Shown here in pieces: positions 29,517 to 53,572 of a stretch of DNA of 64,000 bases. Source of the stretch: Picocystis sp. L7 (Eukaryota > Chlorophyta > Picocystophyceae > Picocystales > Picocystaceae); the NCBI GenBank assembly GCA_020975725.1, contig QXJR01000011.1, positions 620,001 to 684,000 on the forward strand, given 5' to 3'. The notes under the pieces were generated by a model. It worked only from the letters and a program-made list of their open reading frames with translations. It did no database searches and was not told the DNA's origin. A program made the position numbers and the translations under genes. Numbering within the stretch: the first letter of the stretch is position 1; every line of letters starts with the position of its first letter.

Positions 29517-29531
29517 GGAGAACGACACATC

Positions 29532-31145
29532 ATGGTGGTGTCGGAAGGGACCTTGGGCGCGGTGGAGGACCCCTCACTCACGTGCCACGTGGGGATGGTG
29601 GGGGTGGTGCTGGAAGGGATGCACGTGGTCGGGGCGGATCCCCTGGAGGGGAGGGGGAACCGTATCCGGTACGCACACGTGGAAGGAACCGGGATCCACA
29701 AGGGCACCCATCCCCGAAGGTGCAGGATGGTGCCCCGAACGATCCCCTCCGAATCCACAGGGATCGAGTATCGCATCCAACATTGGAAAAAACAACAACC
29801 GGTGGTGTGCTGGATCGCCCACACCCAACCACAACCCTGGGAGGGACGGATGGAAGTGATACTGAGGTCCGGATGGTCCTGGGAACCCATGGTCCTGGTC
29901 GGACAGCTGTCCTGGAAAGAGGTCCGTCAAGCCCATCCGGGTGCCAAGGTCACCGTGCCCATGGAACGGCAAAGAACGGACGGGACCCAACAACCGCTGG
30001 CAGGGTGCCATCTCCGGGTCCAGCTGGTGGTCACGGACCGCCCTCTGACCTCCTCCCACCCAACGCAGGGACGCCAAGGGGACCCCATCCCGGACGGAGA
30101 GGTAGGGGAGGGAGAAGAAGTCTATCACGATGCGAGGGAAGCAGATCTACCGCTCAAGGGAGGACCGCAGGCCTCCGTGGAAGGGGTCCTGCTCGGGCTG
30201 TTGAATTGGTTGCTGGACCTCTTCCTGCAAGGGTGGACGCTTTTGTCCGCCGGACTTTCCTGGGAATCTCTTTCTTCGAGAGGAAGCGCACGCCCGGCAA
30301 ACCAGCACAACGACGGGGACCAAGGGATCAACAGGGGAACGCACGATGACAGGGGCCGCTCGACTCGGGGAGAGCCCTCGTCCGTCCCTCGATCGAAGGA
30401 CCCTACGATGGACGCGGAGACCGAGAATTCTGCAAACAAACAGGACTGGCAAGTGAATCGGGGCGGGGGTTTGTGGAAGCTGAACCTGCCGCAAGCAGCG
30501 CACCAGGAGGTTTCGACCGCCCTGTGGAAGAGTCAAAAAGCCCTTGGGGAGTGCGAGGGATGGGAGGGTCAGTTCCGCATCAAGGACACGGTGGTTTCGT
30601 ACAGCAAAGGCCTGACCGCCAACGGCGGGTCCGGACACTCCCTGTTGTATGGACGGGGCACCCTGGAAATCGCAGACTGCACGCCCGACGAGCTGGCAGG
30701 TGTCATCATGCGTGCAAACTGTCGACTCATGTTGAAGGCCTTCATGGATGCACACAAAAGCAAAGGTTTGCTGCACACGTTCAACGATCATTGCCAGTTC
30801 TGTCACCTCCACATCAAGCCGCCTTGGCCAGTGGAGCAGCGCTCGATCTTCTTTCTTCTGGCCAGGATGAACCAGCCCGATGGTTCCGTGCTGGTGGTGG
30901 GACGGGGCTTGGGACCGCAAGACCTGGGTCTGGAAGTGGACACTGGAGGAGCTGTTCAGGCCGAGCTCGTGCACGGTTGTTACAGGGTGGAACGCGGCGC
31001 GGGCGGTTCGCGGGTGTCCCTGGTCTTGCAGGTCAACGCAAAGATGAGCTTGCCGCATTTCGCACAAGTGCTGCTACTCCGCGACCTCATGGGTTGCTTG
31101 AAGAGGCTGAAGGCCGAGCTTGGCAAGAGTAGGATGCATGAGTGA
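29532..31145 (+). CDS. START-domain lipid-binding membrane protein, copy 1
   Basis: START domains bind and move lipids, sterols or aromatic polyketides. In this 537-residue protein the C-terminal part (about 325-530) has the START pattern with the strong signature HIKPPWPVEQRSIFFLLAR and VVSYSKGL near its start. An N-terminal beta-rich region (about 1-175; GRMEVILRSGWSWEPMVLVG) might be C2-like, but I cannot confirm that. Between them lies a hydrophobic segment (about 217-243, VLLGLLNWLLDLFLQGWTLL) that could be a membrane hairpin, and a Ser/Asp-rich linker. The frame is open in all three copies. Location beside a type III PKS and an ABCG exporter suggests it carries the product or a lipid precursor; this is inference. 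Confidence 0.75.
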   Translation: MVVSEGTLGAVEDPSLTCHVGMVGVVLEGMHVVGADPLEGRGNRIRYAHVEGTGIHKGTHPRRCRMVPRTIPSESTGIEYRIQHWKKQQPVVCWIAHTQPQPWEGRMEVILRSGWSWEPMVLVGQLSWKEVRQAHPGAKVTVPMERQRTDGTQQPLAGCHLRVQLVVTDRPLTSSHPTQGRQGDPIPDGEVGEGEEVYHDAREADLPLKGGPQASVEGVLLGLLNWLLDLFLQGWTLLSAGLSWESLSSRGSARPANQHNDGDQGINRGTHDDRGRSTRGEPSSVPRSKDPTMDAETENSANKQDWQVNRGGGLWKLNLPQAAHQEVSTALWKSQKALGECEGWEGQFRIKDTVVSYSKGLTANGGSGHSLLYGRGTLEIADCTPDELAGVIMRANCRLMLKAFMDAHKSKGLLHTFNDHCQFCHLHIKPPWPVEQRSIFFLLARMNQPDGSVLVVGRGLGPQDLGLEVDTGGAVQAELVHGCYRVERGAGGSRVSLVLQVNAKMSLPHFAQVLLLRDLMGCLKRLKAELGKSRMHE

Positions 31146-32652
31146 AATCCACCCCATGAATCTGGCTGGCCCTTCCCCTGGTCCTCGAGGTTTGCTCTGG
31201 GAAGGGCGCGCTGGGGAGCTGGATCGGCGGGTGGTGCGCTCGGAGTGTTTTCCCCCCCGGTGATCCACTGTATCTTTACCACGTGGATGCGCCCGACCGT
31301 GGGATGCGCGGCCTGCCTGCCCCCCGGAGGGCATACGTTCCGTACCGGACCTGGAAGGGAGCTGGCAGTCATCGATCCGGCAACACCAAGAGGCTGCACA
31401 CAAGGGGACGGAATCCTCAATCCGACATGTCGGTGGCAGGTGGAACCTTAGTCGGAGGCGGCCGTCACTCGCGATGAACTTCGGCGTGGTTCGGTGATGC
31501 CGTACTGAAGCAATTGCGAGGAAGACCGCGAGCACGAGATCGTGCACGCTGTTGAGATTGCGCAAGCTCGCATAGGCATCCCTTGCGTGGGGAGGGGAGA
31601 GGCAGGATCTTTGAAATCAAAGGCCATGAATCGATGCAGGCGCAAAAGTTGCCCTGTGTTTTTGGGTCGTCTCCTTGGGGGATCCATCCTCTTCCCTGCG
31701 TTGAAGGGGCCACGGCAGATGCCTCGGCATCCGCCTGGTTCCGCCCTGCCCAGTCCTCCCTGCCCTCGAAGTGCATTCCCTGGGCTTCTGGGGAGCGAAG
31801 CTGCATCCGCAAGGCCAGCTCGTGCTTGATCGCACGATGCGTAGGCTAGAGCACAGATCAAGGCGAGCGAGGCAGAGCAACATGAGAACGACCGCAGTCG
31901 CCATGTGCGATGCGTGTTCCATCCTCCGTACCATTCCCTCCCTCGTTTCGAACCCTCGAGGCTGGGCCATCCCTGCAAAGCCAGGAGAAGGGCGACCGAG
32001 GCGGGCTTCCCGGGTCCACGGTCTGGAAGGACGAACTTGGGAGCTTCCACCAGAGCCCGCGACCATTCCTCCGTACCTGGCCGTGCAACATGGAGCTGGA
32101 GAAGTGTTGGGACCCTGGCGTCGGGCGGTCAAACGAGAAAAGGTGCAGAGGTTCAAGCTCACCGCTGGGCTGTACAAGCGTGGAAGGAGGATGGATCCCA
32201 CGTTGGCGTTCCAGTTCAAGCGCTACCCAACGTTGATCTCCGGTGGACATCCCCAGCGGTAGCTAAGGATTCGGTCCAGCCAACCCGGGGAACAAGAGCC
32301 TCTCCGTGGACGACCTCTTGCTCGGATGCACCGCGGTTTGGGCCACCTGCCAAGCAGGGCTCTCCTCTCGCCTGTTACACAAAGAGGGGCAAAAAGCCCG
32401 CCAAACCGGGGCAGTGGAATGCGGGGGATGGAAGCAGCAAGAGCGCGCCAAAATCGCCGGCTCCTTTCCCTCGGAAAGGCTAGGCAGCGGATCGATCGTG
32501 CCCCTTGCTGTCGGGCACCGTTGTGGAGGTTTCTTGTGCACCCGTGGCGGCCGTTCTGTTTGCTGGTAGATGCGGGAGACCACGGATGGGCAATCCAAGG
32601 AAAGGAGCATCCCCAATGCCGGACCACAAGCAACCGTGCGCATCCACGCTGC
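31146..32652 (-). other. Unresolved interval with possible small secreted-protein gene, copy 1
   Basis: About 1.5 kb between the 3' ends of START and ABCG, conserved in all three units. On the minus strand an ATG at 31904 starts MATAVVLMLLCLARLDLC, a good signal peptide, and after 23 codons (31836) meets a GTGCGA donor in phase 0, the same donor type as verified introns here. I could not settle downstream exons: frames 31812-31465 and 31565-31074 are both open but neither resembles a known family. It could be a spliced secreted protein, a decayed gene or untranslated spacer. Confidence 0.3.
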
Positions 32653-34755
32653 TCAGCGGAGTTCCCTGGTAAAAAGGCGCAAGGAAACGTAGGAAAGCGC
32701 ATTCAAAACGACGCCCATCACCAGAAGTCCGGCGATGTTGGAGGCATAGCTCCAACCAAACCCGCCGTTGGAAAGTATGTCGCTCGAGTTTATATCCAGG
32801 CCAACGGCACTCACCTCCAAGTCTCCTACGGAGAGCAGGCCGTTCAAATCCGCATTGGAGGTGAACGCCTCCTCACAGGCCGCCAAGATGGATGCAGATT
32901 CATCCATGCCCTGAACCTCCACGTTGCGATACACCACATCCGAATCAAACTGGTTCACCACCAGAGCCTCAAAAGCGTACCGCGCGGTGCACAAATACTG
33001 CAGCCAGGACACGTACTGGGATACCATGGAAAGGGGCACGACGTGGTTGGAGTAGATCACGTTGATCATCACCACCCCCCCTGCGGCCACAATAGCCGTC
33101 GTAACGTTTGGAAGCGCCAGCGAAGCAAGCACCACCGCAAGCGCGCTGTTCCAATGGTTCAGCCAAAGGGCCACAAAAGCCTTGAAGAAGGGCCCCGCGC
33201 CAGACCGGTAACCCATCCAGAAGTACGTAGGGGCCAAGAGTGCCACGGCAGAAAAGAAAACCACCACCGCTTCACAGAACGTGTTTGCAACGTAGTACGC
33301 AAGCGCCCCGTACATACGACTCTTGGACTCCTTGACGAAAAACTGCCGGTCCGAAACAAAGATGTTGATGGCCACAAAAGGAAGGATGAGCGAAACAATG
33401 GTCAGTGTGAAAAGACCGTTGAGAAGCTGGAACGGTCCATTGCCGGACTCCATGAACGCCAATCCAAGCAAAGCCGCCAACAGCAGCATGCATCCGATCC
33501 GCCCCAAGATGCTGAAGAGGTCCCTGTAGTACTTCTGGATGGCACGGGCGGTGAGGACTCGCAGCTGGACCCGAAAGCCCGCCGGAATGGGGAGGTCCGA
33601 AGACGCGTATGGTTTTTTGTCCGAAGACGCGTATGGTTTTTTGTCCAAACCCGCTGGGGAGTGGACCGTCCTGTTTCGTTCAAAAGACGCTTTGGCTTGT
33701 AGCAGGTCGGCCAATTCTTTCATGGTGTTGCCCTGCATTTGTTCTTTCCCCTTCCAATCGCTGATGCTGATCACTTCCAGTATGAAATCGCATTCGTTGA
33801 AGCCGGGTACATCTTTGTGGGGCATGTACCCCAAGTCGGCGAACCAGGAACAGGCCGCACGCGGGTCACCCGCATAGAGCATGTGACCGCAACTTAAAAT
33901 GAAAACGTTGTCCAGCATATCCCAGATCCTCTGTTGGGGCTGGTGGATGGTTGCCACCACGGTCACCATTCTTTCTGTTGCTTCCTTGCGCAGGATGGAC
34001 ATCATGTGCAAAGCATTGAAACTGTCCAGGCCGGTCGTAAACTCATCCAAGAGCAGGACGCTGGGGGCGCTGACCAGCCCCGCTCCCAGAGAAAGCCTGC
34101 GTCGCTCTCCTCCGCTGATGCCTCTTGTCAGGAACCCGCTGAAGTTGTATCCCCCGATGCGATGTCCGCCGATGCTGTCTAGCCCCGTGTCAAACAGGAC
34201 TTGGCTCACCTTCTCCATTTGTTGCGCCGTGCTCAGGTGCGGTGCCCGGAGCTGCACGGTGAAAGCCAGTGCTTCGTGCACGGTCATGATGGGAATGAAG
34301 GAGTCCTCTTGCTGCACGTAGCTGAGGCGCCTCCCCAGGTCGGGGATCTCTGTGGGATCCCTGTCCTCGAAGCGCACTTCTCCGGTGATGCGTCCCAGTG
34401 TCTTCCTCCCCGCCAAGATGTCCAGCAGGCTGGTCTTTCCTGCGCCCGAGGGTCCAACGATGGCCGAGATTTGCCCCGGAAGGAAGGAGCCTGCACATTC
34501 GTGCAGCACGTGCTGTTCATCTCCTTCCTTGTCGCGATAGGCGCAGGAAACCCCTCCGAAGGACACCGGCATCCCTGGTTCGCGAACTCGTTCGGTGGCT
34601 TTCGGTGTCCATTCGAGCGAACCGTCACCCACTTCGACGTCGTTTCGCATCTCGGAACCGTTCGGATGGGTCTTCTCCCCGTTGGATGGCTTGCCTTCGT
34701 CTGGTGTGGATTGCCCCTCCCTCGGTCCCCTCCTGGCATCGGTTCTTTCTTCCAT
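32653..34755 (-). CDS. ABCG half-transporter, copy 1
   Basis: ABCG half-transporters dimerise and export lipids, waxes or secondary metabolites. The 700-residue product has the reverse (ABC first) layout: Walker A GPSGAGKTS (about 101-109), signature ISGGERRR (about 213), Walker B VLLLDEFTTGLDS (about 233), the H-loop HQPQQ, then six membrane helices with a long loop before the last. The linker holds a coding repeat, KKPYASSD twice (24-bp DNA units). I chose the ATG at 34755 (MEERTDARR); an in-frame ATG at 34866 adds 37 spacer-like residues. CACGTG cores lie upstream near 34800, 34925 and 35010. The frame is intact. Confidence 0.92.
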   Translation of the reverse strand: MEERTDARRGPREGQSTPDEGKPSNGEKTHPNGSEMRNDVEVGDGSLEWTPKATERVREPGMPVSFGGVSCAYRDKEGDEQHVLHECAGSFLPGQISAIVGPSGAGKTSLLDILAGRKTLGRITGEVRFEDRDPTEIPDLGRRLSYVQQEDSFIPIMTVHEALAFTVQLRAPHLSTAQQMEKVSQVLFDTGLDSIGGHRIGGYNFSGFLTRGISGGERRRLSLGAGLVSAPSVLLLDEFTTGLDSFNALHMMSILRKEATERMVTVVATIHQPQQRIWDMLDNVFILSCGHMLYAGDPRAACSWFADLGYMPHKDVPGFNECDFILEVISISDWKGKEQMQGNTMKELADLLQAKASFERNRTVHSPAGLDKKPYASSDKKPYASSDLPIPAGFRVQLRVLTARAIQKYYRDLFSILGRIGCMLLLAALLGLAFMESGNGPFQLLNGLFTLTIVSLILPFVAINIFVSDRQFFVKESKSRMYGALAYYVANTFCEAVVVFFSAVALLAPTYFWMGYRSGAGPFFKAFVALWLNHWNSALAVVLASLALPNVTTAIVAAGGVVMINVIYSNHVVPLSMVSQYVSWLQYLCTARYAFEALVVNQFDSDVVYRNVEVQGMDESASILAACEEAFTSNADLNGLLSVGDLEVSAVGLDINSSDILSNGGFGWSYASNIAGLLVMGVVLNALSYVSLRLFTRELR

Positions 34756-35676
34756 GTCCTTTTGAACACCCCTTCCATCCCCACCCGTCCTGGGGATGAT
34801 CACGTGGGGTCGATGGAAGGGGGATGGAGACGTCTTTCCCCTCCCCCCATCCGGCACCCAAGCCACCGTACCCTCGTTCCCCTACGGATCCAGTGGGGCT
34901 GGAGCTACGGTGGAGGAATGGGATCACGTGGGTGCGATCCGAGGGAATCCACCGGGATCCCATCCCCCGCCCCCACACCATGGTGTCCCCACTCCGGGGA
35001 CGGTGAAGGACACGTGGTCGGGGATGGACCAGGATCCGCCCCAGATCCCACACAATGGATGCGGGGGATCGGATCGAATCCAGAAGAAGACCCAGAAGAA
35101 GACCCAGACATCCCCCTCCAAACGACCGTACAGGGGACCGGACAGCGAGGGGGGATGGAAAGGGATCTGCATGGCCCGAAGGTGCAGGAGATGAAAAACA
35201 TGTCGATGGATCCCCCTCCATCATGGACACAACACGGTCCTGCTTGGCAGAGGGGAAGGACGGTTCCAACCATGGGAATCTCCAGGCCCAACGCGGGGTC
35301 TCCCGGGAAGAAGGCCGGTGGGAACAAGACCGGTGGCATTCGAGTTGGACATCGACCAGTGCGAACCAGGCGAACAAGCCACCCCCCAAAACTCGTGGGG
35401 CAGAGCTCCGATGCACGGCCTCTGACATGTAAAGATGTGCCTCCATTCCCATCCTGCGTCCGAACGAGCCTGGATGTGAAGATCCACGCAAGGCCTCTCT
35501 TGAGAGGGAGAAACATGCGAACCACCGGGGACCTATCGAAACGGAGGCACGTGGACAAACAAAACACAGGGGATATATCCTACATAGGGGAAACATGCAG
35601 CGAAGCTGTTTGCCGTGCGACTTGCAACCCTCGCGGTACATGGACGGCACATCCGCATGCAAACGCCGTCGTGGCC
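34756..35676. promoter_or_regulatory. ABCG upstream / PKS downstream spacer, copy 1
   Basis: About 920 bp between the PKS stop and the ABCG start on the same strand. It has CACGTG cores near the ABCG gene and a short AGAAGACCC tandem repeat at about 35082-35106, which is the left breakpoint of the deletion seen in copy 3. No gene is seen. Confidence 0.5.
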
Positions 35677-37107
35677 CTACGGAGCCGCTGGAGCGCTTTC
35701 TTCGCGGCGAGCGATGCGGTGCAGGCCCAGCACCTCGACCGTAAGACCCGGCCCAAAACCCAAACAAAAGGCGCGATCCTTGCGAGCGTCCTTCATCATG
35801 CGGTCCATCACAAACAGGATCGTGGGAGAGGACATGTTGCCGTGGTTCCTCAAAACACCGTAGGAATGCCGGAGCACGCCCTTGTCCAGGTTCAGTCCGA
35901 ACTTGGGGTCACGGAACACGTCCAGTATCTTCACCCCCCCGGGATGGACACACCACTCCACGTCGGTCGTCTTGTCAACATGACACACGCTGGGCACATG
36001 GGAGAGAAACAGCACCGGTCAGCCATCTGCATCGCAAACCACACGCACCAAGCCGCCTATGGTCCCTCGCGGCACGACCTGTCCTCGCCCCCTTCCCGCG
36101 TACCTCCTCATAAACTTCTTTACATTCCGGAACAGACAGAACCCCAGGCTGGTCGATATGCTCTTGTCCAGGTACATGCAGTAGCCGAAGTTGGACGGCG
36201 CCCAAGTCATGTGGGAGCGGGTGCTCTTCCCCAACAGATGGCTGTAGTTTGTGCCCAAGGCCCAGTCCCCGTGGGACCCTGCGCCCACAATGGCGGCGGC
36301 TCCCCCGTCCGCAAACACGGTGTTTCCGATGAACTCGCTCCGGTTGCTGCTGAGAGAAAAGTGAATGCTGCAAATCTCAACGCACACAAGAAGGACAATG
36401 GCATCGGGCTCGGCTTCCACGATGCTTTTGGCGGCCGCCAGCCCCGTGAAGGCCCCGAAGCAGCCCATGTAATTGATTCCGAACCGACGCCGGACGTTCT
36501 GCAGACCCAGGGCGTCCAGGATGTCCAGCTCCACCCCTGGGGCTTTGAATCCCGTGCAGCTGTGAAAGATCAGGTGGGTGATTTCCTGCTTGTCTCCTCC
36601 CCACTGCTCCACTGCTTTGTTTGCGGCCGCGATCCCCAGTCGCGGGGCCCAGGTCGCCCACAGGGCCTGGCGCTCCTCCGCGGTTGGGTTGTAATCCAGT
36701 TCTGCAGAGGGAAAGAGTCCCATCCTCTCCGACTTCGGTTTGGACAGGTTATTGTCCTCAAAGTCCTCGTGTGGATGCACGCAGTAGCGCTGGTCGATGC
36801 CTGAATTCTGGCAGCGGGGTAGGAAGAAGTCGATCCATCGTTCGGAGACGATGCCTTTTCCTCGCAGACAGAGCCCGAGGATTTCCATGTAGTAGTCGTT
36901 GGAGAAGCAGTAGGGTGGGTTTTCGGTTCCAATGGCCAGGATGGCCGGTGCACCTTCGCCTGGACCCTTCGCTTTGAGGGCCCTTTCCCTCCGGGCTTTC
37001 GCTCGAGAGGCCAGCAGGCTCCGCAGCGAGTACAGGGCCCATGTGCTCACCAGCACGAGTTCCACCATCTGGTAGATGTCCAGGCGAGGCAGCATGCTTT
37101 GGAACAT
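35677..37107 (-). CDS. Type III polyketide synthase (chalcone-synthase family), copy 1
   Basis: Type III PKSs condense malonyl-CoA onto acyl-CoA starters to give phenols, pyrones or alkylresorcinols. Exons 37107-36104 and 35989-35677 join across a 114-nt intron (donor GTACGC, branch CTGAC, pyrimidine tract, acceptor CCCAG) to 438 residues. The triad is intact: Cys about 216 (YMGCFGAF), His about 350 (WCVHPGG) and Asn about 386 (HGNMSS). The gatekeeper-region Phe (SIHF, about 250) and the C-terminal GFGPGLTVE are also present. An added N-terminus has one hydrophobic helix (YQMVELVLVSTWALYSL), suggesting membrane attachment. The ATG at 37107 (MFQSML) is chosen; in-frame ATGs at 37230 and 37368 are possible. 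I first considered 3-ketoacyl-CoA synthase, but GFGPGLTVE and GNMSS fit the CHS family. Confidence 0.9.
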
Positions 37108-38081
37108 CTTCCGTTCCTCTAGCTGGCGATGTCGGATGGGCGTGGGCAGAGGCGGTCGGTGGAAGTGTTTTCCATTGGGCAGTCTCACGTGGGGTCGTTC
37201 CCCCCATACTTGACCCAGCCACCCACACATGGTGTCGGTTCGGAACTGGGGTTCGAGGAGCGGTTGAGGGGGATGGGTCTCGAACCCGATGAAGATCCCC
37301 GTTTCGGGGGCGAATCTCCCCCAATGGAGAGCCCTGCTGGGTCCTGTCACCCCGGGGCGGTGAGGCACGTGGACGGTGGATCGATTGCTGCAGATCCGGT
37401 GGTCCGGGTCCGGTCACGATGGAACGATACGGTTCGTGCGGGTGCGGATTTCTCGGAGGGTTCAGACGTGGAGGAGCGGATGGGAATGATGCGAAGAATT
37501 GCACGGGTACGAGGGGGAGGAAACGCGCGTCCAACCTCCATGGCCCGTGGAGGAAGAAAACGAGCGGAGGACATGCACGGGGGAAAGATCGCGGGTATCT
37601 AGGGTTCGGATACGCACATGTGCTGGGGGACAGGGTGACGTATCCAAGGACAACACATTCCGCCCCTTCTCGCCTTGGAAGCGACGGGGATCCGTCGAAT
37701 TCGCTCGGGTTGCAGCTAACCGTTCGTGGTGGATCTGGAGGGGGGCCCTTTTCCCGCGGGTGTAGTGGATGTCCTTTCGTAAACATCGACGAAGTTAACG
37801 AGAGGGGGAGAAGGGGGTCAAAACCAAGCCAGCCCAAGTTTGGCCTGGGCCCTCGGCGCCCCCGAGGGTCGAAACTCCCTGGGAAGGATCCCTGCTCTCC
37901 CCACTGGGGCGAACGTGCCAGACTCGTCCGATTGCCAATCCGGCACACCTCCAGGGGCCGACAACACCTCCCCACCCACCACAGCCATACAAGCACTTCA
38001 TGGATCACCGAGACGGATGCCACAGATCGAAAGAAGCCCGTGGAAGATAGGGCGGTGGCGTAGCAGGGAGAACAACACATC
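37108..38081. promoter_or_regulatory. Divergent PKS / START spacer, unit 1 to 2 junction
   Basis: About 970 bp between the PKS (-) start and the second START (+) start. Because units abut here, START copies 2 and 3 share a divergent upstream region with a PKS gene, while START copy 1 does not. The unit boundary is at about 38066/38067. No gene is seen. Confidence 0.55.
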
Positions 38082-39695
38082 ATGGTGGTGTCGGAAGGGA
38101 CCTTGGGCGCGGTGGAGGACCCCTCACTCACGTGCCACGTGGGGATGGTGGGGGTGGTGCTGGAAGGGATGCACGTGGTCGGGGCGGATCCCCTGGAGGG
38201 GAGGGGGAACCGTATCCGGTACGCACACGTGGAAGGAACCGGGATCCACAAGGGCACCCATCCCCGAAGGTGCAGGATGGTGCCCCGAACGATCCCCTCC
38301 GAATCCACAGGGATCGAGTATCGCATCCAACATTGGAAAAAACAACAACCGGTGGTGTGCTGGATCGCCCACACCCAACCACAACCCTGGGAGGGACGGA
38401 TGGAAGTGATACTGAGGTCCGGATGGTCCTGGGAACCCATGGTCCTGGTCGGACAGCTGTCCTGGAAAGAGGTCCGTCAAGCCCATCCGGGTGCCAAGGT
38501 CACCGTGCCCATGGAACGGCAAAGAACGGACGGGACCCAACAACCGCTGGCAGGGTGCCATCTCCGGGTCCAGCTGGTGGTCACGGACCGCCCTCTGACC
38601 TCCTCCCACCCAACGCAGGGACGCCAAGGGGACCCCATCCCGGACGGAGAGGTAGGGGAGGGAGAAGAAGTCTATCACGATGCGAGGGAAGCAGATCTAC
38701 CGCTCAAGGGAGGACCGCAGGCCTCCGTGGAAGGGGTCCTGCTCGGGCTGTTGAATTGGTTGCTGGACCTCTTCCTGCAAGGGTGGACGCTTTTGTCCGC
38801 CGGACTTTCCTGGGAATCTCTTTCTTCGAGAGGAAGCGCACGCCCGGCAAACCAGCACAACGACGGGGACCAAGGGATCAACAGGGGAACGCACGATGAC
38901 AGGGGCCGCTCGACTCGGGGAGAGCCCTCGTCCGTCCCTCGATCGAAGGACCCTACGATGGACGCGGAGACCGAGAATTCTGCAAACAAACAGGACTGGC
39001 AAGTGAATCGGGGCGGGGGTTTGTGGAAGCTGAACCTGCCGCAAGCAGCGCACCAGGAGGTTTCGACCGCCCTGTGGAAGAGTCAAAAAGCCCTTGGGGA
39101 GTGCGAGGGATGGGAGGGTCAGTTCCGCATCAAGGACACGGTGGTTTCGTACAGCAAAGGCCTGACCGCCAACGACGGGTCCGGACACTCCCTGTTGTAT
39201 GGACGGGGCACCCTGGAAATCGCAGACTGCACGCCCGACGAGCTGGCAGGTGTCATCATGCGTGCAAACTGTCGACTCATGTTGAAGGCCTTCATGGATG
39301 CACACAAAAGCAAAGGTTTGCTGCACACGTTCAACGATCATTGCCAGTTCTGTCACCTCCACATCAAGCCGCCTTGGCCAGTGGAGCAGCGCTCGATCTT
39401 CTTTCTTCTGGCCAGGATGAACCAGCCCGATGGTTCCGTGCTGGTGGTGGGACGGGGCTTGGGACCGCAAGACCTGGGTCTGGAAGTGGACACTGGAGGA
39501 GCTGTTCAGGCCGAGCTCGTGCACGGTTGTTACAGGGTGGAACGCGGCGCGGGCGGTTCGCGGGTGTCCCTGGTCTTGCAGGTCAACGCAAAGATGAGCT
39601 TGCCGCATTTCGCACAAGTGCTGCTACTCCGCGACCTCATGGGTTGCTTGAAGAGGCTGAAGGCCGAGCTTGGCAAGAGTAGGATGCATGAGTGA
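38082..39695 (+). CDS. START-domain lipid-binding membrane protein, copy 2
   Basis: 537 residues, same domain layout as copy 1 (N-terminal beta-rich region, hydrophobic segment at about 217-243, C-terminal START with KPPWPVEQRS). I see one residue difference from copy 1 (Gly to Asp in TANDGSG). Unlike copy 1, it lies divergent to a PKS gene and so has a different upstream region. Confidence 0.75.
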   Translation: MVVSEGTLGAVEDPSLTCHVGMVGVVLEGMHVVGADPLEGRGNRIRYAHVEGTGIHKGTHPRRCRMVPRTIPSESTGIEYRIQHWKKQQPVVCWIAHTQPQPWEGRMEVILRSGWSWEPMVLVGQLSWKEVRQAHPGAKVTVPMERQRTDGTQQPLAGCHLRVQLVVTDRPLTSSHPTQGRQGDPIPDGEVGEGEEVYHDAREADLPLKGGPQASVEGVLLGLLNWLLDLFLQGWTLLSAGLSWESLSSRGSARPANQHNDGDQGINRGTHDDRGRSTRGEPSSVPRSKDPTMDAETENSANKQDWQVNRGGGLWKLNLPQAAHQEVSTALWKSQKALGECEGWEGQFRIKDTVVSYSKGLTANDGSGHSLLYGRGTLEIADCTPDELAGVIMRANCRLMLKAFMDAHKSKGLLHTFNDHCQFCHLHIKPPWPVEQRSIFFLLARMNQPDGSVLVVGRGLGPQDLGLEVDTGGAVQAELVHGCYRVERGAGGSRVSLVLQVNAKMSLPHFAQVLLLRDLMGCLKRLKAELGKSRMHE

Positions 39696-44226: not shown

Positions 44227-45657
44227 CTACGGAGCCGCTGGAGCGCTTTCTTCGCGGCGAGCGATGCGGTGCAGGCCCAGCACCTCGACCGTAAGACCCG
44301 GCCCAAAACCCAAACAAAAGGCGCGATCCTTGCGAGCGTCCTTCATCATGCGGTCCATCACAAACAGGATCGTGGGAGAGGACATGTTGCCGTGGTTCCT
44401 CAAAACACCGTAGGAATGCCGGAGCACGCCCTTGTCCAGGTTCAGTCCGAACTTGGGGTCACGGAACACGTCCAGTATCTTCACCCCCCCGGGATGGACA
44501 CACCACTCCACGTCGGTCGTCTTGTCAACATGACACACGCTGGGCACATGGGAGAGAAACAGCACCGGTCAGCCATCTGCATCGCAAACCACACGCACCA
44601 AGCCGCCTATGGTCCCTCGCGGCACGACCTGTCCTCGCCCCCTTCCCGCGTACCTCCTCATAAACTTCTTTACATTCCGGAACAGACAGAACCCCAGGCT
44701 GGTCGATATGCTCTTGTCCAGGTACATGCAGTAGCCGAAGTTGGACGGCGCCCAAGTCATGTGGGAGCGGGTGCTCTTCCCCAACAGATGGCTGTAGTTT
44801 GTGCCCAAGGCCCAGTCCCCGTGGGACCCTGCGCCCACAATGGCGGCGGCTCCCCCGTCCGCAAACACGGTGTTTCCGATGAACTCGCTCCGGTTGCTGC
44901 TGAGAGAAAAGTGAATGCTGCAAATCTCAACGCACACAAGAAGGACAATGGCATCGGGCTCGGCTTCCACGATGCTTTTGGCGGCCGCCAGCCCCGTGAA
45001 GGCCCCGAAGCAGCCCATGTAGTTGATTCCGAACCGACGCCGGACGTTCTGCAGACCCAGGGCGTCCAGGATGTCCAGCTCCACCCCTGGGGCTTTGAAT
45101 CCCGTGCAGCTGTGAAAGATCAGGTGGGTGATTTCCTGCTTGTCTCCTCCCCACTGCTCCACTGCTTTGTTTGCGGCCGCGATCCCCAGTCGCGGGGCCC
45201 AGGTCGCCCACAGGGCCTGGCGCTCCTCCGCGGTTGGGTTGTAATCCAGTTCTGCAGAGGGAAAGAGTCCCATCCTCTCCGACTTCGGTTTGGACAGGTT
45301 CTTGTCCTCAAAGTCCTCGTGTGGGTGCACGCAGTAGCGCTGGTCGATGCCTGAATTCTGGCAGCGGGGTAGGAAGAAGTCGATCCATCGTTCGGAGACG
45401 ATGCCTTTTCCTCGCAGACAGAGCCCGAGGATTTCCATGTAGTAGTCGTTGGAGAAGCAGTAGGGTGGGTTTTCGGTTCCAATGGCCAGGATGGCCGGTG
45501 CACCTTCGCCTGGACCCTTCGCTTTGAGGGCCCTTTCCCTCCGGGCTTTCGCTCGAGAGGCCAGCAGGCTCCGCAGCGAGTACAGGGCCCATGTGCTCAC
45601 CAGCACGAGTTCCACCATCTGGTAGATGTCCAGGCGAGGCAGCATGCTTTGGAACAT
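44227..45657 (-). CDS. Type III polyketide synthase, copy 2
   Basis: Exons 45657-44654 and 44539-44227, the same 114-nt intron, 438 residues, all triad residues present. I see one residue difference from copy 1 (Asn to Lys in FEDKNLSK). It is the last intact PKS in the array. Confidence 0.9.
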
Positions 45658-46631
45658 CTTCCGTTCCTCTAGCTGGCGATGTCGGACGGGCGTGGGCAGA
45701 GGCGGTCGGTGGAAGTGTTTTCCATTGGGCAGTCTCACGTGGGGTCGTTCCCCCCATACTTGACCCAGCCACCCACACATGGTGTCGGTTCGGAACTGGG
45801 GTTCGAGGAGCGGTTGAGGGGGATGGGTCTCGAACCCGATGAAGATCCCCGTTTCGGGGGCGAATCTCCCCCAATGGAGAGCCCTGCTGGGTCCTGTCAC
45901 CCCGGGGCGGTGAGGCACGTGGACGGTGGATCGATTGCTGCAGATCCGGTGGTCCGGGTCCGGTCACGATGGAACGATACGGTTCGTGCGGGTGCGGATT
46001 TCTCGGAGGGTTCAGACGTGGAGGAACGGATGGGAATGATGCGAAGAATTGCACGGGTACGAGGGGGAGGACACGCGCGTCCAACCTCCATGGCCCGTGG
46101 AGGAAGAAAACGAGCGGAGGACATGCACGGGGGAAAGATCGCGGGTATCTAGGGTTCGGATACGCACATGTGCTGGGGGACAGGGTGACGTATCCAAGGA
46201 CAACACATTCCGCCCCTTCTCGCCTTGGAAGCGACGGGGATCCGTCGAATTCGCTCGGGTTGCAGCTAACCGTTCGTGGTGGATCTGGAGGGGGGCCCTT
46301 TTCCCGCGGGTGTAGTGGATGTCCTTTCGTAAACATCGACGAAGTTAACGAGAGGGGGAGAAGGGGGTCAAAACCAAGCCAGCACACGTTTGGCCTGGGC
46401 CCTCGGCGCCCCCGAGGGTCGAAACTCCCTGGGAAGGATCCATGCTCTCCCCACTGGGGCGAACGTGCCAGACTCGTCCGATTGCCAATCCGGCACACCT
46501 CCAGGGGCCGACAACACCTCCCCACCCACCACAGCCATACAAGCACTTCATGGATCACCGAGACGGATGCCACAGATCGAAGGAAGCCCGTGGAAGATAG
46601 GGCGGTGGCGTAGCAGGGAGAACAACACATC
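45658..46631. promoter_or_regulatory. Divergent PKS / START spacer, unit 2 to 3 junction
   Basis: Counterpart of 37108-38081, with a few base changes. It is the upstream region of both PKS copy 2 and START copy 3. Confidence 0.55.
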
Positions 46632-48245
46632 ATGGTGGTGTCGGAAGGGACCTTGGGCGCGGTGGAGGACCCCTCACTCACGTGCCACGTGGGGATGGTG
46701 GGGGTGGTGCTGGAAGGGATGCACGTGGTCGGGGCGGATCCCCTGGAGGGGAGGGGGAACCGTATCCGGTACGCACACGTGGAAGGAACCGGGATCCACA
46801 AGGGCACCCATCCCCGAAGGTGCAGGATGGTGCCCCGAACGATCCCCTCCGAATCCACAGGGATCGAGTATCGCATCCAACACCGGAAAAAACAACAACC
46901 GGTGGTGTGCTGGATCGCCCACACCCAACCACACCCCTGGGAGGGAAGGATGGAAGTGATACTGAGGTCCGGATGGTCCTGGGAACCCATGGTCCTGGTC
47001 GGACAGCTGTCCTGGAAAGAGGTCCATCAAGCCCATCCGGGTGCCAAGGTCACCGTGCCCATGGAACGGCAAAGAACGGACGGGACCCAACAACCGCTGG
47101 CAGGGTGCCATCTCCGGGTCCAGCTGGTGGTCACGGGCCGCCCTCTGACCTCCTCCCACCCAACGCAGGGACGCCAAGGGGACCCCATCCCGGACGGAGA
47201 GGTAGGGGAGGGAGAAGAAGTCTATCACGATGCGAGGGAAGCAGATCTACCGCTCAAGGGGGGACCGCAGGCCTCCGTGGAAGGGGTCCTGCTCGGGCTG
47301 TTGAATTGGTTGCTGGACCTCTTCCTGCAAGGGTGGACGCTTTTGTCCGCCGGGCTTTCCTGGGAATCCCCTTCTTCGAGAGGAAGCGCACGCCCGGCAA
47401 ACCAGCACAACGACGGGGACCAAGGGATCAACAGGGGAACGCACGATGACAGGGGCCGCTCGACTCGGGGAGAATCCTCGTCCGTCCCTCGATCGAAGGA
47501 CCCTACGATGGACGCGGAGACCGAGAATTCTGCAAACAAACAGGACTGGCAAGTGAATCGGGGCGGGGGTTTGTGGAAGCTGAATCTGCCGCAAGCAGCG
47601 CACCAGGAGGTTTCGACCGCCCTGTGGAAGAGTCAAAAAGCCCTTGGGGAGTGCGAGGGATGGGAGGGTCAGTTCCGCATCAAGGACACGGTGGTTTCGT
47701 ACAGCAAAGGCCTGACCGCCAACGACGGGTCCGGACACTCCCTGTTGTACGGACGGGGCACCCTGGAAATCGCAGACTGCACGCCCGACGAGCTGGCAGA
47801 TGTCACCATGCGTGCAAACTGTCGACTCATGTTGAAGGCCTTCATGGATGCACACAAAAGCAAAGGTTTGCTGCACACGTTCAACGATCATTGCCAGCTC
47901 TGTCACCTCCACATCAAGCCGCCTTGGCCAGTGGAGCAGCGCTCGATCTTCTTTCTTCTGGCCAGGATGAACCAGCCCGATGGTTCCGTGCTGGTGGTGG
48001 GACGGGGCTTGGGACCGCAAGACCTGGGTCTGGAAGTGGACACTGGAGGAGCTGTTCAGGCCGAGCTCGTGCACGGTTGTTACAGGGTGGAACGCGGCGC
48101 GGGCGGTTCGCGGGTGTCCCTGGTCTTGCAGGTCAACGCAAAGATGAGCTTGCCGCATTTCGCACAAGTGTTGCTACTCCGCGACCTCATGGGTTGCTTG
48201 AAGAGGCTGAAGGCCGAGCTTGGCAAGAGTAGGATGCATGAGTGA
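46632..48245 (+). CDS. START-domain lipid-binding membrane protein, copy 3
   Basis: 537 residues, open frame. It is the most diverged of the three: changes I can see include Arg to His (EVHQ), Asp to Gly (VVTGRP), Leu to Pro (SWESP), Pro to Ser (RGESSS), Gly-Val-Ile to Asp-Val-Thr (LADVTMR) and Phe to Leu (HCQLCHLH). The KPPWPV signature is kept. Confidence 0.73.
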   Translation: MVVSEGTLGAVEDPSLTCHVGMVGVVLEGMHVVGADPLEGRGNRIRYAHVEGTGIHKGTHPRRCRMVPRTIPSESTGIEYRIQHRKKQQPVVCWIAHTQPHPWEGRMEVILRSGWSWEPMVLVGQLSWKEVHQAHPGAKVTVPMERQRTDGTQQPLAGCHLRVQLVVTGRPLTSSHPTQGRQGDPIPDGEVGEGEEVYHDAREADLPLKGGPQASVEGVLLGLLNWLLDLFLQGWTLLSAGLSWESPSSRGSARPANQHNDGDQGINRGTHDDRGRSTRGESSSVPRSKDPTMDAETENSANKQDWQVNRGGGLWKLNLPQAAHQEVSTALWKSQKALGECEGWEGQFRIKDTVVSYSKGLTANDGSGHSLLYGRGTLEIADCTPDELADVTMRANCRLMLKAFMDAHKSKGLLHTFNDHCQLCHLHIKPPWPVEQRSIFFLLARMNQPDGSVLVVGRGLGPQDLGLEVDTGGAVQAELVHGCYRVERGAGGSRVSLVLQVNAKMSLPHFAQVLLLRDLMGCLKRLKAELGKSRMHE

Positions 48246-49752
48246 AATCCACCCCATGAATCTGGCTGGCCCTTCCCCTGGTCCTCGAGGTTTGCTCTGG
48301 GAAGGGAGCGCTGGGGAGCTGGATCAACGGGTGGTGCGCTCGGAGTGTTTTCCCCCCCGGTGATCCACTGTATCTTTACCACGTGGATGCGCCCGACCGT
48401 GGGATGCGCGGCCTGCCTGCCCCCCGGAGGGCATACGTTCCGTACCGGACCTGGAAGGGAGCTGGCAGCCATCGATCGGGCAACACCAAGAGGCTGCACA
48501 CAAGGGGACGGAATCCTCAATCCGACATGTCGGTGGCAGGTGGAACCTTTGTCAGAGGCGGCCGTCACTCGCGATGAACTTCGGTGTGGTTCGGTGATGC
48601 CGTACTGAAGCAATTGCGAGGAAGACCGCGAGCACGAGATCGTGCACGCTGTCGAGGTTGCGCAAGCTCGCATAGGCATCCCTTGCGTGGGGAGGGGAGA
48701 GGCAGGATCTTTGAAATCAAAGGCCATGAATCGATGCAGGCGCAAAAGTTGCCCTGTGTTTTTGGGTCGTCTCCTTGGGGGATCCATCCTCTTCCCTGCG
48801 TTGAAGGGGCCACGGCAGATGCCTCGGCATCCGCCTGGTTCCGCCCTGCCCAGTCCTCCCTGCCCTCGAAGTGCATTCCCTGGGCTTCTGGGGAGCGAAG
48901 CTGCATCCGCAAGGCCAGCTCGTGCTTGATCGCACGATGCGTAGGCTAGAGCACAGATCAAGGCGAGCGAGGCAGAGCAACATGAGAACGACCGCAGTCG
49001 CCATGTGCGATGCGTGTTCCATCCTCCGTACCATTCCCTCCCTCGTTTCGAACCCTCGAGGCTGGGCCATCCCTGCAAAGCCAGGAGAAGGGCGACCGAG
49101 GCGGGCTTCCCGGGTCCACGGTCTGGAAGGACGAACTTGGGAGCTTCAACCAGAGCCCGCGACCATTCCTCCGTACCTGGCCGTGCAACATGGAGCTGGA
49201 GAAGTGTTGGGACCCTGGCGTCGGGCGGTCAAACGAGAAAAGGTGCAGAGGTTCAAGCTCACCGCTGGGCTGTACAAGCGTGGAAGGAGGATGAATCCCA
49301 CGTTGGCGTTCCAGTTCAAGCGCTACCCAACGTTGATCTCCGGTGGACATCCCCAGCGGTAGCTAAGGAGTCGGTCCAGCCAACCCGGGGAACAAGAGCC
49401 TCTCCGTGGACGACCTCTTGCTCGGATGCACCGCGGTTTGGGCCACCTGCCAAGCAGGGCTCTCCTCTCGCCTGTTACACAAAGAGGGGCAAAAAGCCCG
49501 CCAAACCGGGGCAGTGGAATGCGGGGGATGGAAGCAGCAAGAGCGCGCCGAAATCGCCGCCTCCTTTCCCTGGGAAAGGCGAGGCAGCGGATGGATCGTG
49601 CCCCTTGCTGTCGGGCACCGTTGTGGAGGTTTCTTGTGCACCCGTGGCGGCCGTTCTGTTTGCTGGTAGATGCGGGAGACCACGGATGGGCAACCCAAGG
49701 AAAGGAGGATCCCCCGTGCCGGACCACAAGCAACCGTGCGCATCCACGCTGC
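48246..49752 (-). other. Unresolved interval with possible small secreted-protein gene, copy 3
   Basis: Counterpart of 31146-32652. The signal-peptide start is at 49004 and its GTGCGA donor follows 48936, unchanged from copy 1. A change near 48551 removes a stop, so a minus-strand frame runs 49078-48080 here but not in the other copies; that argues against that frame being the real product. Confidence 0.3.
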
Positions 49753-51831
49753 TCAGCGGAGTTCCCTGGTAAAAAGGCGCAAGGAAACGTAGGAAAGCGC
49801 ATTCAAAACGACGCCCATCACCAGAAGTCCGGCGATGTTGGAGGCATAGCTCCAACCAAACCCGCCGTTGGAAAGTATGTCGCTCGAGTTTATATCCAGG
49901 CCAACGGCACTCACCTCCAAGTCTCCTACGGAGAGCAGGCCGTTCAAATCCGCATTGGAGGTGAACGCCTCCTCACAGGCCGCCAAGATGGATGCAGATT
50001 CATCCATGCCCTGAACCTCCACGTTGCGATACACCACATCCGAATCAAACTGGTTCACCACCAGAGCCTCAAAAGCGTACCGCGCGGTGCACAAATACTG
50101 CAGCCAGGACACGTACTGGGATACCATGGAAAGGGGCACGACGTGGTTGGAGTAGATCACGTTGATCATCACCACCCCCCCTGCGGCCACAATAGCCGTC
50201 GTAACGTTTGGAAGCGCCAGCGAAGCAAGCACCACCGCAAGCGCGCTGTTCCAATGGTTCAGCCAAAGGGCCACAAAAGCCTTGAAGAAGGGCCCCGCGC
50301 CAGACCGGTAACCCATCCAGAAGTACGTAGGGGCCAAGAGTGCCACGGCAGAAAAGAAAACCACCACCGCTTCACAGAACGTGTTTGCAACGTAGTACGC
50401 AAGCGCCCCGTACATACGACTCTTGGACTCCTTGACGAAAAACTGCCGGTCCGAAACAAAGATGTTGATGGCCACGAAAGGAAGGATGAGCGAAACAATG
50501 GTCAGTGTGAAAAGACCGTTGAGAAGCTGGAACGGTCCATTGCCGGGCTCCATGAACGCCAATCCAAGCAAAGCCGCCAACAGCAGCATGCATCCGATCC
50601 GCCCCAAGATGCTGAAGAGGTCCCTGTAGTACTTCTGGATGGCACGGGCGGTGAGGACTCGCAGCTGGACCCGAAAGCCCGCCGGAATGGGGAGGTCCGA
50701 AGACGCGTATGGTTTTTTGTCCGAAGACGCTGGGGAGTGAACCGTCCTGTTTCGTTCAAAAGACGCTTTGGCTTGTAGCAGGTCGGCCAATTCTTTCATG
50801 GTGTTGCCCTGCATTTGTTCTTTCCCCTTCCAGTCGCTGATGCTGATCACTTCCAGTATGAAATCGCATTCGTTGAAGCCGGGTACATCTTTGTGGGGCG
50901 TGTACCCCAAGTCGGCGAACCAGGAACAGGCCGCACGCGGGTCACCCGCATAGAGCATGTGACCGCAACTTAAAATGAAAACGTTGTCCAGCATATCCCA
51001 GATCCTCTGTTGGGGCTGGTGGATGGTTGCCACCACGGTCACCATTCTTTCTGTTGCTTCCTTGCGCAGGATGGACATCATGTGCAAAGCATTGAAACTG
51101 TCCAGGCCGGTCGTAAACTCATCCAAGAGCAGGACGCTGGGGGCGCTGACCAGCCCCGCTCCCAGAGAAAGCCTGCGTCGCTCTCCTCCGCTGATGCCTC
51201 TTGTCAGGAACCCGCTGAAGTTGTATCCCCCGATGCGATGTCCGCCGATGCTGTCTAGCCCCGTGTCAAACAGGACTTGGCTCACCTTCTCCATTTGTTG
51301 CGCCGTGCTCAGGTGCGGTGCCCGGAGCTGCACGGTGAAAGCCAGTGCTTCGTGCACGGTCATGATGGGAATGAAGGAGTCCTCTTGCTGCACGTAGCTG
51401 AGGCGCCTCCCCAGGTCGGGGATCTCTGTGGGATCCCTGTCCTCGAAGCGCACTTCTCCGGTGATGCGTCCCAGTGTCTTCCTCCCCGCCAAGATGTCCA
51501 GCAGGCTGGTCTTTCCTGCGCCCGAGGGTCCAACGATGGCCGAGATTTGCCCCGGAAGGAAGGAGCCTGCACATTCGTGCAGCACGTGCTGTTCATCTCC
51601 TTCCTTGTCGCGATAGGCGCAGGAAACCCCTCCGAAGGACACCGGCATCCCTGGTTCGCGAACTCGTTCGGTGGCTTTCGGTGTCCATTCGAGCGAACCG
51701 TCACCCACTTCGACGTCGTTTCGCATCTCGGAACCGTTCGGATGGGTCTTCTCCCCGTTGGATGGCTTGCCTTCGTCTGGTGTGGATTGCCCCTCCCTCG
51801 GTCCCCTCCTGGCATCGGTTCTTTCTTCCAT
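49753..51831 (-). CDS. ABCG half-transporter, copy 3
   Basis: 692 residues. All nucleotide-binding motifs are kept. One 24-bp unit of the linker repeat is missing, so KKPYASSD occurs once, in frame. Met to Thr (LGYTPHKD) is another difference. Although its partner PKS is gone, the ABCG frame remains open. Confidence 0.92.
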   Translation of the reverse strand: MEERTDARRGPREGQSTPDEGKPSNGEKTHPNGSEMRNDVEVGDGSLEWTPKATERVREPGMPVSFGGVSCAYRDKEGDEQHVLHECAGSFLPGQISAIVGPSGAGKTSLLDILAGRKTLGRITGEVRFEDRDPTEIPDLGRRLSYVQQEDSFIPIMTVHEALAFTVQLRAPHLSTAQQMEKVSQVLFDTGLDSIGGHRIGGYNFSGFLTRGISGGERRRLSLGAGLVSAPSVLLLDEFTTGLDSFNALHMMSILRKEATERMVTVVATIHQPQQRIWDMLDNVFILSCGHMLYAGDPRAACSWFADLGYTPHKDVPGFNECDFILEVISISDWKGKEQMQGNTMKELADLLQAKASFERNRTVHSPASSDKKPYASSDLPIPAGFRVQLRVLTARAIQKYYRDLFSILGRIGCMLLLAALLGLAFMEPGNGPFQLLNGLFTLTIVSLILPFVAINIFVSDRQFFVKESKSRMYGALAYYVANTFCEAVVVFFSAVALLAPTYFWMGYRSGAGPFFKAFVALWLNHWNSALAVVLASLALPNVTTAIVAAGGVVMINVIYSNHVVPLSMVSQYVSWLQYLCTARYAFEALVVNQFDSDVVYRNVEVQGMDESASILAACEEAFTSNADLNGLLSVGDLEVSAVGLDINSSDILSNGGFGWSYASNIAGLLVMGVVLNALSYVSLRLFTRELR

Positions 51832-52201
51832 GTCCTTTTGAACACCCCTTCCATCCCCACCCGTCCTGGGGATGATCACGTGGGGTCGATGGAAGGGGGA
51901 TGGAGACGTCTTTCCCCTCCCCCCATCCGGCACCCAAGCCACCGTACCCTCGTTCCCCTACGGATCCAGTGGGGCTGGAGCTACGGTGGAGGAATGGGAT
52001 CACGTGGGTGCGATCCGAGGGAATCCACCGGGATCCCATCCCCCGCCCCCACACCATGGTGTCCCCACTCCGGGGACGGTGAAGGACACGTGGTCGGGGA
52101 TGGACCAGGATCCGCCCCAGATCCCACACAATGGATGCGGGGGATCGGATCGAATCCAGAAGAAGACCCAGAAGAAGACCCCCGTTTCGGGGGCGAAGCT
52201 C
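51832..52201. promoter_or_regulatory. ABCG copy 3 upstream region and deletion scar
   Basis: Carries the same CACGTG cores as the other copies up to the AGAAGACCC repeat. At about 52178 it joins directly to CCCCGTTTCGGGGGCGAA, which in copies 1 and 2 lies upstream of the PKS start. The flanks share GAAGA and CCC at the join. Confidence 0.6.
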
Positions 52202-52652
52202 TGTTGACCGAATAGTCTTTCTCAGTGGGTTTTGCGTGAGAGAGATCGATGATTATCACCACTAATTCACTACCTAGTATTACAGTTCCACCCACGAGCG
52301 TGCGAATCACCAAACACCAGGTTCCAAGTTTGACCGTACGTGTGTTCCAACGGTTCCAGTTGCCATGCCCTTCAGTTCTTCTCGTAGGCTCACGAGTCCA
52401 ACACAGCAGCAAGCGTCCACACTTCTCTCTACCAGTCCCTTCTGACACTCCACTGGAGTATATCAGGTGGGGGGCAGTGCTACAATCCCATGCAGTTCAG
52501 GATACCTACCACTGCAGACTTCGGTGATGGGGTGACCCAGTCCCTTCGATCCCTTCCGAGACTCGAAACCACTGGGGGTGGGAGTATCTTCGAACTGGGG
52601 TGACTCGAGTGAACCATCATGATTGTACCCAGGTACAGCCAATTGACTAACA
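52202..52652. mobile_element. Solo LTR of a retrotransposon
   Basis: A 451-bp insertion relative to the other units, beginning TGTTGACC and ending GACTAACA (TG...CA ends, imperfect inverted TGTT/AACA). It is flanked by a perfect 5-bp duplication AGCTC at 52197-52201 and 52653-52657. The undisturbed site in copies 1 and 2 lacks it. It has no coding capacity. The family is not identified; it does not resemble the Ty3-type element further right. It is younger than the PKS deletion, since it sits beside the scar. Confidence 0.88.
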
Positions 52653-53572
52653 AGCTCCCCCATTGGAGAGCCCTACTGGGTCCTGTCACCCCGGAGCGGT
52701 GAGGCATGTGGACGGTGGATCGATTCCTGCAGATCCGGTGGTCCGGGTCCGGTCACGATGGAACGATACGGTTCGTGCGGGTGCGGATTTCTCGGAGGGG
52801 TCAGACGAGGGAGGGGGGAAGAGGATAGGAATGGTCCGAGGAAATGCACGGGTCCGCGAGGGAGGACACGCGCGTCCAACCTCCATGGCCCGTGGAGGAA
52901 GAAAACGAGCGGAGGACGTGCAAGGGGGAAAGATCGCGGGTATCTGGGGTTCGGATACGCACATGTGCTGGGGGACAGGGTGACGTAGCCAAGTACAACA
53001 CGGTTCGGCCGATCTGCCCGGCTTTCGTACGACTTACCCCACATGGTCCCTTCGCCCCAAAGCGTTGTGTGGGTTGTTTCTGCTGCTATACAGATCGGGT
53101 CGATCGCCCCACTTGGATGGGTCGACACCCTAGGCTTATGGGAGTGGCCCGAATGCGTTTTGCAAGGGGGTGGCTCGTGCGCTAGGATGTCTAGTCAAAG
53201 TGCGCGGCCGCTTACTCGACCCACACCTGCATTAAAGTGCTTCGGTACCTTGGGACGGTACCTGAACGCGGGCCAAAGAAAACTACGGGCAGTCACGGCC
53301 TCCACACTGTGCAGCACTCACGTGCAGCTGCTATACGACGAACACCTAGCGCAACAACTGTCCGTCGCATCTTTTCTGCGTCGTGGAAGGAAAGGCTTGA
53401 AAGCACGATATCGGGACGACTGGACAACTGCACTTCTATTTCCCACACCTGATCATCAAGTTTCAGCTGTAGAAGACTACGGAAAGAAAGGAAGTCGACT
53501 GGTGGCTGTGTCAAGCTTTTCTGTGAGAGAGCATCCAAAACAATTCGCAGCTTGTCTTGATTTTCGACAACT
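52653..53572. other. Remnant of repeat unit and spacer before FG-GAP gene
   Basis: 52658-53003 matches the PKS upstream region of the other units, with many differences and short indels. From 53004 the sequence is unique and looks less GC-rich. A plus-strand frame 53043-53585 does not resemble a known protein. This presumably includes the promoter of the FG-GAP gene. Confidence 0.5.

Follow-up and report, generated by a model that had tools for sequence, protein, structure and literature searches.

Do three neighbouring genes that are amplified together as a block also act together? This question is raised by a stretch of 64,000 nucleotides from the chlorophyte Picocystis sp. L7 (GenBank assembly GCA_020975725.1, contig QXJR01000011.1, positions 620,001 to 684,000 of the forward strand; hereafter the window), in which genes for a type III polyketide synthase (PKS), an ABCG half-transporter and a START-like, possibly lipid-binding protein are repeated in tandem. 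This nuclear array is genuine and somewhat decayed; two of its genes are firmly identified and the third is uncertain. We propose, tentatively and at just under an even chance, that a full unit of this array serves to synthesise and export a lipophilic polyketide, with joint action inferred from linkage. The idea is plausible and testable, and it rests on this linkage.

A self-comparison of 31-mers is dominated by a head-to-tail period of 8,550 base pairs (bp), with matching starts from 29525 to 42180 (all coordinates are those of the window); shifted periods of 17,076 and 8,526 bp also appear, where unit 3 lacks 24 bp. When the segment 29001-38200 was compared with the whole window by BLAST, unit 2 matched unit 1 without gaps over 8,684 bp at 99.678% identity (28 mismatches), which is far beyond chance. 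Unit 3 is 98.73% identical to unit 1 across 5,589 alignment columns from 46617 to 52181, and beyond this position it matches unit 1 again only in the 350 columns of a short remnant. Each full unit carries, in this order, the START-like gene (+), the ABCG gene (-) and the PKS gene (-), and the array holds three START-like, three ABCG and two PKS genes in total. The PKS coding region of unit 3 (the equivalent of 35677-37230) is missing through a deletion of about 2.2 kb that joins the equivalents of about 35105 and about 37298; the insertion beside this deletion has no second copy within the window. The sequence before unit 1 is unlike that preceding units 2 and 3, and the junction segment is absent both before unit 1 and after unit 3. 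An earlier note on this DNA had described an exact 8,550-bp head-to-tail repeat and a triplicated module. The period is as described, whereas the sequence of the units is similar rather than exact; two units are full, whereas the third, in which the BLAST match stops at 52181, has no PKS, and a clean triplication is rejected on this ground.

The identity of the PKS, as named in the earlier note, is confirmed by Pfam, with Chal_sti_synt_N (PF00195, 2.3e-31) in exon 1 and Chal_sti_synt_C (PF02797, 2.3e-17) in exon 2. The unspliced frame is interrupted by an in-frame stop at about 36020, and removal of a predicted intron of 114 nucleotides yields a type III PKS of 479 amino acids, alike in both full copies. 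This predicted intron is supported by the score against PDB entry 7f0e, which rises on splicing from 94.3 bits with the exon-1 frame to 142.2 bits, and by the C-terminal domain in exon 2. At E <= 1e-20, the spliced protein finds 86 distinct sequences in the PDB, with EnPKS2 as the best (1.9e-40). Among the best 60 of these 86 matches, the names are mostly those of chalcone, stilbene, quinolone and pyrone synthases, and Steely1 ranks 14th; the match table carries molecule names, not organisms, and we take most of the matches to be plant enzymes. Cys257, His391, Asn427 and the GFGPG loop (G453-G457) are invariant in a three-sequence alignment with two PDB chains, each at 33% identity. By sequence, the protein can be assigned firmly to the chalcone/stilbene synthase superfamily, and it appears most like chalcone/stilbene-synthase-type enzymes with intact catalytic residues. 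The equivalents of Thr197 and Phe265, which we take to be the cavity and gate positions of chalcone synthase (CHS), read His290 and Met352; in an alignment at 33% identity that contains no CHS sequence of reference numbering, this would speak weakly against a strict CHS. The residue labels printed with one of the alignments are higher by one than those of CHS. The equivalent of CHS Gly256 is not placeable, as the region adjoins an 8-residue insertion. DpgA was rejected as an alternative assignment, with 121.7 bits against the NCBIfam NF042429 cut-off of 425 bits. Both full copies keep an open frame and differ, over both exons, by two synonymous and two non-synonymous codons. Among 145 pattern matches in a scan of contigs, a single relative of the PKS was present in a chlamydial metagenome-assembled genome (L001:4001-5098); it encodes a type III PKS with 34% identity and both Chal_sti_synt domains by Pfam, and is uninformative for the three-gene linkage.

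The half-transporter named in the earlier note is equally well defined, since ABC_tran (1.8e-21) is followed by ABC2_membrane (5.4e-29) in one Pfam-annotated frame of 737 amino acids. This chain contains a single nucleotide-binding domain (126-277) followed by a single transmembrane domain (434-640). Because of this length and the single nucleotide-binding domain, the protein is classified by sequence as a half-size transporter, which would need to dimerise. The frame is open in all three copies, and all of them carry the motifs GPSGAGKT, ISGGERRR and LLLDEFTTGLD, presumably Walker A, signature and Walker B. Five hydrophobic segments pass a simple Kyte-Doolittle scan. The protein matches 441 distinct PDB sequences at E <= 0.001; among the best 60 of them, full-size multidrug pumps (7p03, CDR1) lead, and ABCG2, ABCG8, ABCG25, ABCG16, ABCG1 and ABCG5 follow among the matches listed. 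The NCBIfam pigment precursor permease family is matched over residues 111-734 at 4.5e-96, which is below the cut-off of that family: for this White/pigment precursor permease subfamily the score of 322.8 bits falls short of the TIGR00955 cut-off of 736.35 bits. Copies 1 and 2 differ by one synonymous and three non-synonymous codons, and copies 1 and 3, not counting the 8-codon gap, by three synonymous and two non-synonymous codons.

Table 1. Features of the tandem array, in window coordinates.
Feature	Position	Strand	Description	Basis
Repeat unit 1	29517..38066		8,550 bp; starts 15 bp 5' of the START-like ATG	Self-comparison, BLAST
Repeat unit 2	38067..46616		8,550 bp	BLAST
Repeat unit 3, incomplete	46617..53001		PKS deleted, end truncated	BLAST
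Junction segment	37651..38066; second copy 46201-46616		PKS upstream region to next START-like gene
Insertion in unit 3	52198..52651		About 450 bp, origin unplaced, beside the PKS deletion	Left edge read by eye (BLAST places it at 52202)
Remnant of PKS upstream region in unit 3	52652..53001		91.7% identical to unit 1	BLAST
START-like copy 1	29532..31145	+	537 amino acids, single open frame
START-like copy 2	38082..39695	+	537 amino acids
START-like copy 3	46632..48245	+	537 amino acids, frame open
ABCG copy 1	32653..34866	-	Open frame of 737 amino acids; likely ATG at 34755 (about 700 amino acids)
ABCG copy 2	41203..43416	-
ABCG copy 3	49753..51942	-	8 codons shorter, in frame, inside a short repeat
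PKS copy 1, exon 1	36104..37230	-	N-terminal extension, catalytic Cys257
PKS copy 1, predicted intron	35990..36103	-	114 nucleotides, GT-AG
PKS copy 1, exon 2	35677..35989	-	His391, Asn427, GFGPG loop
PKS copy 2, exon 1	44654..45780	-
PKS copy 2, exon 2	44227..44539	-

The divergence between the units provides some insight into the history of the array. Units 1 and 3 differ at 42 of 3,136 sites (1.3%) in their first block, which comprises the START-like gene, the DNA between it and the unit start, and the spacer downstream, and at 5 of 2,409 sites (0.2%) in the ABCG gene and the spacer that follows it (Fisher p 1.8e-6 versus the first block). Of the 350 alignment columns of the terminal block upstream of the PKS, 23 are mismatches and about 6 are gaps, corresponding to about 6.7% without gaps (p 1.7e-8 versus the START-like block and 4.4e-17 versus the ABCG block; the test used 23 versus 320 identical sites, where the BLAST figure implies 321). 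Due to this patchiness (0.2%, 1.3% and about 6.7%), a single recent triplication of uniform age is rejected, and the pattern suggests either that gene conversion has acted on the ABCG part or that duplication and unequal crossing-over took place in several rounds; the figures are compatible with conversion and with multiple duplications alike, and also with unequal constraint. The array thus recombines, as one PKS copy is lost and the divergence is patchy. At 57 sites exactly one of the three copies deviates, and the deviating copy belongs to unit 3 in 40 cases, to unit 2 in 10 and to unit 1 in 7. The START-like genes show no synonymous and one non-synonymous codon difference between copies 1 and 2, and nine synonymous and ten non-synonymous differences between copies 1 and 3.

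If the three proteins of a full unit cooperate, the PKS would condense malonyl-coenzyme A (CoA) onto an acyl-CoA, and the product would be a lipophilic pyrone, resorcinol or phenolic. The START-like protein, with its hydrophobic stretch, could then pick up or shuttle this product, and an ABCG dimer could export it to the wall, the surface or the medium. A START function, a membrane tether, the substrate and joint action of the three genes are what we infer here. A more elaborate version, which we consider unlikely, would see a linked make-carry-export unit in which a membrane-tethered PKS is joined by an ABCG exporter and by a carrier of a divergent START type, amplified as a block, kept similar by gene conversion and having arisen independently as a clustered counterpart of the pollen-wall PKSA/B and ABCG26 pair.

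Several observations weigh against the synthesis-and-export proposal, among them those on the START-like protein, which the earlier note had called a START-domain membrane protein. Neither part of this label is upheld. The protein of 537 amino acids matches no Pfam family at E 0.01, the START profile PF01852 included, and no NCBIfam family at E 0.1; its C-terminal 241 and N-terminal 253 amino acids match no Pfam family at E 10. The C-terminal 241 amino acids have 16 PDB matches at E <= 10, headed by designed D12 constructs (0.0062) and NSF (0.18). The sole START protein among them, 3qsz, ranks 14th of the 16 with a non-significant E-value of 0.56 (phmmer), but its alignment (79-238 to 30-181) takes in the greater part of each sequence. 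A query of 167 amino acids returns 3qsz at E 0.72 in the last of seven places, and a query of 131 amino acids returns no PDB match. Single-sequence AlphaFold models reach a mean predicted local distance difference test (pLDDT) score of 35.4 for the C-terminal 241 and 35.8 for the N-terminal 211 amino acids; fold searches with these models give no match at E <= 0.001, and 82 and 274 matches, respectively, at E <= 10. No START protein occurs among the best 50 of the 82 C-terminal fold matches, and a model with a pLDDT of 35 weighs neither way. By eye, the last 180 amino acids resemble START domains, an impression that is not counted as a test. Overall, the sequence is weakly compatible with a divergent START domain. 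As to the membrane label, the strongest hydrophobic stretch lies at residues 214-232 with a score of 1.6, next to three others of 1.03-1.07, as judged by Kyte-Doolittle only. The protein has no match in plasmids at E 0.1, and PF01852 is found in 0 of 1 and 0 of 232 bacterial genomes, but also in 0 of 14 controls, so that nothing follows about the window. The START-like protein, the PKS exon-1 frame and the ABCG protein are each without relative in viral contigs.

In the PKS, about 90 N-terminal residues precede the PKS fold and include a hydrophobic stretch at 55-73 (score 1.36), followed by the basic RAKARRER (Kyte-Doolittle), and this extension may serve as a membrane tether. The anchor is weakly indicated, because a stretch inside the PKS core (264-282) scores almost as high, at 1.33. 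In addition, no CoA ligase, reductase, cytochrome P450 or other tailoring gene was detected in the scanned frames of the unit, which are not all of its frames. The START-like and ABCG genes are convergent, and the divergent arrangement of PKS and START-like gene exists solely at the duplication junctions. Unit 3 has kept its ABCG and START-like genes and lost the PKS, a pattern that lends little support to strict co-dosage of the three genes. Finally, co-amplification is weak evidence for a pathway, because 8.5 kb in a gene-dense region carry several neighbours anyway: positions 1-29 kb of the window contain 16 gene candidates, about one per 1.8 kb, with Pfam matches for 12 of them (candidates are open reading frames with a coding score minus overlapping antisense ones, counted manually).

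A rival view is that a local tandem duplication in a dense region caught three neighbours, at most one of which matters, for example the ABCG protein as a general efflux pump, the others being unrelated. With several genes to be expected in any 8.5 kb, the PKS lost from unit 3 and the gene orientation mixed, such passenger amplification is a serious possibility, which we place somewhat below an even chance. It is opposed by the functional precedent for a half-size ABCG protein as partner of a type III PKS, and by the fact that both full PKS and all three ABCG copies remain open. For the shared pathway suggested in the earlier note, this leaves a mixed picture: two firm genes and a functional plant precedent speak for it, whereas the START assignment is weak, the pathway rests on linkage and co-amplification adds little.

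An improbable explanation is an assembly or haplotype artefact, in which some copies are alleles or mis-joined reads and the genome has fewer units than the sequence shows. The identity of 99.68% between units 1 and 2 would be compatible with the level of heterozygosity of some protists. Unit 3, however, has its own 8-codon gap, deletion, insertion and right flank and is the odd one at 40 of the 57 single-deviant sites, and the junction segment is common to the two internal joins only. We consider it very improbable that the product of the PKS is a phenolic for the wall or for storage, like the phloroglucinol-type compounds of brown algae, and that it is made independently of the ABCG and START-like genes. 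Ochrophyte type III PKS enzymes are known for phloroglucinol (PMC10366177, PMC8133574). Nevertheless, none of the best 60 of the 86 PDB matches is named as brown-algal, a comparison not based on a tree, and a homologue of the Ectocarpus enzyme is placed in a bacterial clade (PMC10366177).

The surroundings of the array are those of a eukaryotic genome. The window encodes ribophorin II, a syntaxin, a SET protein, a sybindin and a cytosolic carboxypeptidase, and this gene content, together with the predicted PKS intron, points to a eukaryotic origin. The G+C content of 2-kb stretches ranges from 0.485 to 0.627, and the window contains neither tRNA genes nor Rfam matches. An aldo/keto reductase gene (26792-27958, +, 1.3e-39) lies one gene away from the array, separated from it by a Band_7 (prohibitin-like) gene at 28004-28573. 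The aldo/keto reductase family includes polyketide reductases, and a tie of this gene to the PKS is speculation. On the right, the array is adjoined by a gene for a protein with six FG-GAP_2 repeats (53573-54991, +, 6.2e-63). A Ty3/gypsy-type retrotransposon at 57497-63964 (-) encodes reverse transcriptase, RNase H, integrase (H2C2 and rve) and aspartyl protease; its 5' end may exceed the window, and no terminal repeats are present in 54901-64000. Its next downstream frame has an integrase-tail-like start, as judged by eye, followed by a Dam-like N6-adenine methyltransferase domain (PF05869, 3.1e-12); a PDB search gave no match at E 1. DIRS elements with Dam-like enzymes and a Gypsy element with a cytosine methyltransferase have been described (PMC5890265), and a Dam-carrying Gypsy element is named in none of the titles among the papers listed.

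Outside land plants, little is known about how cells handle type III polyketides internally and export them. A natural copy-number series that includes a PKS-less unit would allow dosage, product and export to be told apart. For one pelagophyte, gene clusters are reported to play no major part in secondary metabolism (PMC10366177); if the linkage described here is conserved, it would represent, contrary to that report, a protist or algal polyketide pathway that is organised as a cluster.

Comparable systems share individual traits with the array. Among the titles listed by searches of the open-licence PMC literature, none describes a gene cluster of a type III PKS and an ABCG or other ABC transporter in algae, which is not proof of absence; the one paper that combines type III PKS, ABC transporter and microalgal cluster concerns bacterial fatty acids. 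The ochrophytes Ectocarpus and Chrysophaeum likewise provide a type III PKS in a non-plant eukaryote, but the Chrysophaeum homologue of the Ectocarpus phloroglucinol synthase belongs to the bacterial clade (PMC10366177), whereas the PKS of the array scores best to chalcone/stilbene-synthase-type enzymes; the term 'ABC transporter' does not occur in the same source. A type III PKS is also mentioned in a haptophyte (PMC4580454), while two diatoms and oomycetes are without the enzyme and lateral transfer from an actinobacterium has been suggested (PMC8133574). In fungi, type III PKS genes likewise stand beside other clustered genes, but their neighbours are P450s, aldo-keto reductases, dehydrogenases and other PKS or non-ribosomal peptide synthetases, and the words 'transporter' and 'membrane' are absent from PMC12559476. 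Tandem amplification is known from plant type III PKS genes (PMC8133574), although here a multi-gene unit is repeated and the PKS is lost from one unit.

The best precedent is functional and comes, by analogy, from the plant type III PKS and the half-size ABCG26 in pollen-wall formation. The plant PKSA/B and ABCG26 genes are not known to be linked. The half-size AtABCG26 is listed with the substrates 'Sporopollenin precursors; Polyketides' (table in PMC9409143), and type III PKS alpha-pyrones are sporopollenin precursors, for the export of which ABC transporters and lipid transfer proteins are supported (PMC8446667). In the land-plant sporopollenin pathway (PKSA/LAP6, PKSB/LAP5 and ABCG26), a half-size ABCG exporter is likewise connected with the polyketide products of a type III PKS (PMC9409143, PMC8446667). 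The term 'gene cluster' does not appear in PMC8446667, whereas the genes of the array are tandemly co-amplified; and where the plant pathway uses lipid transfer proteins, the array has a START-like protein.

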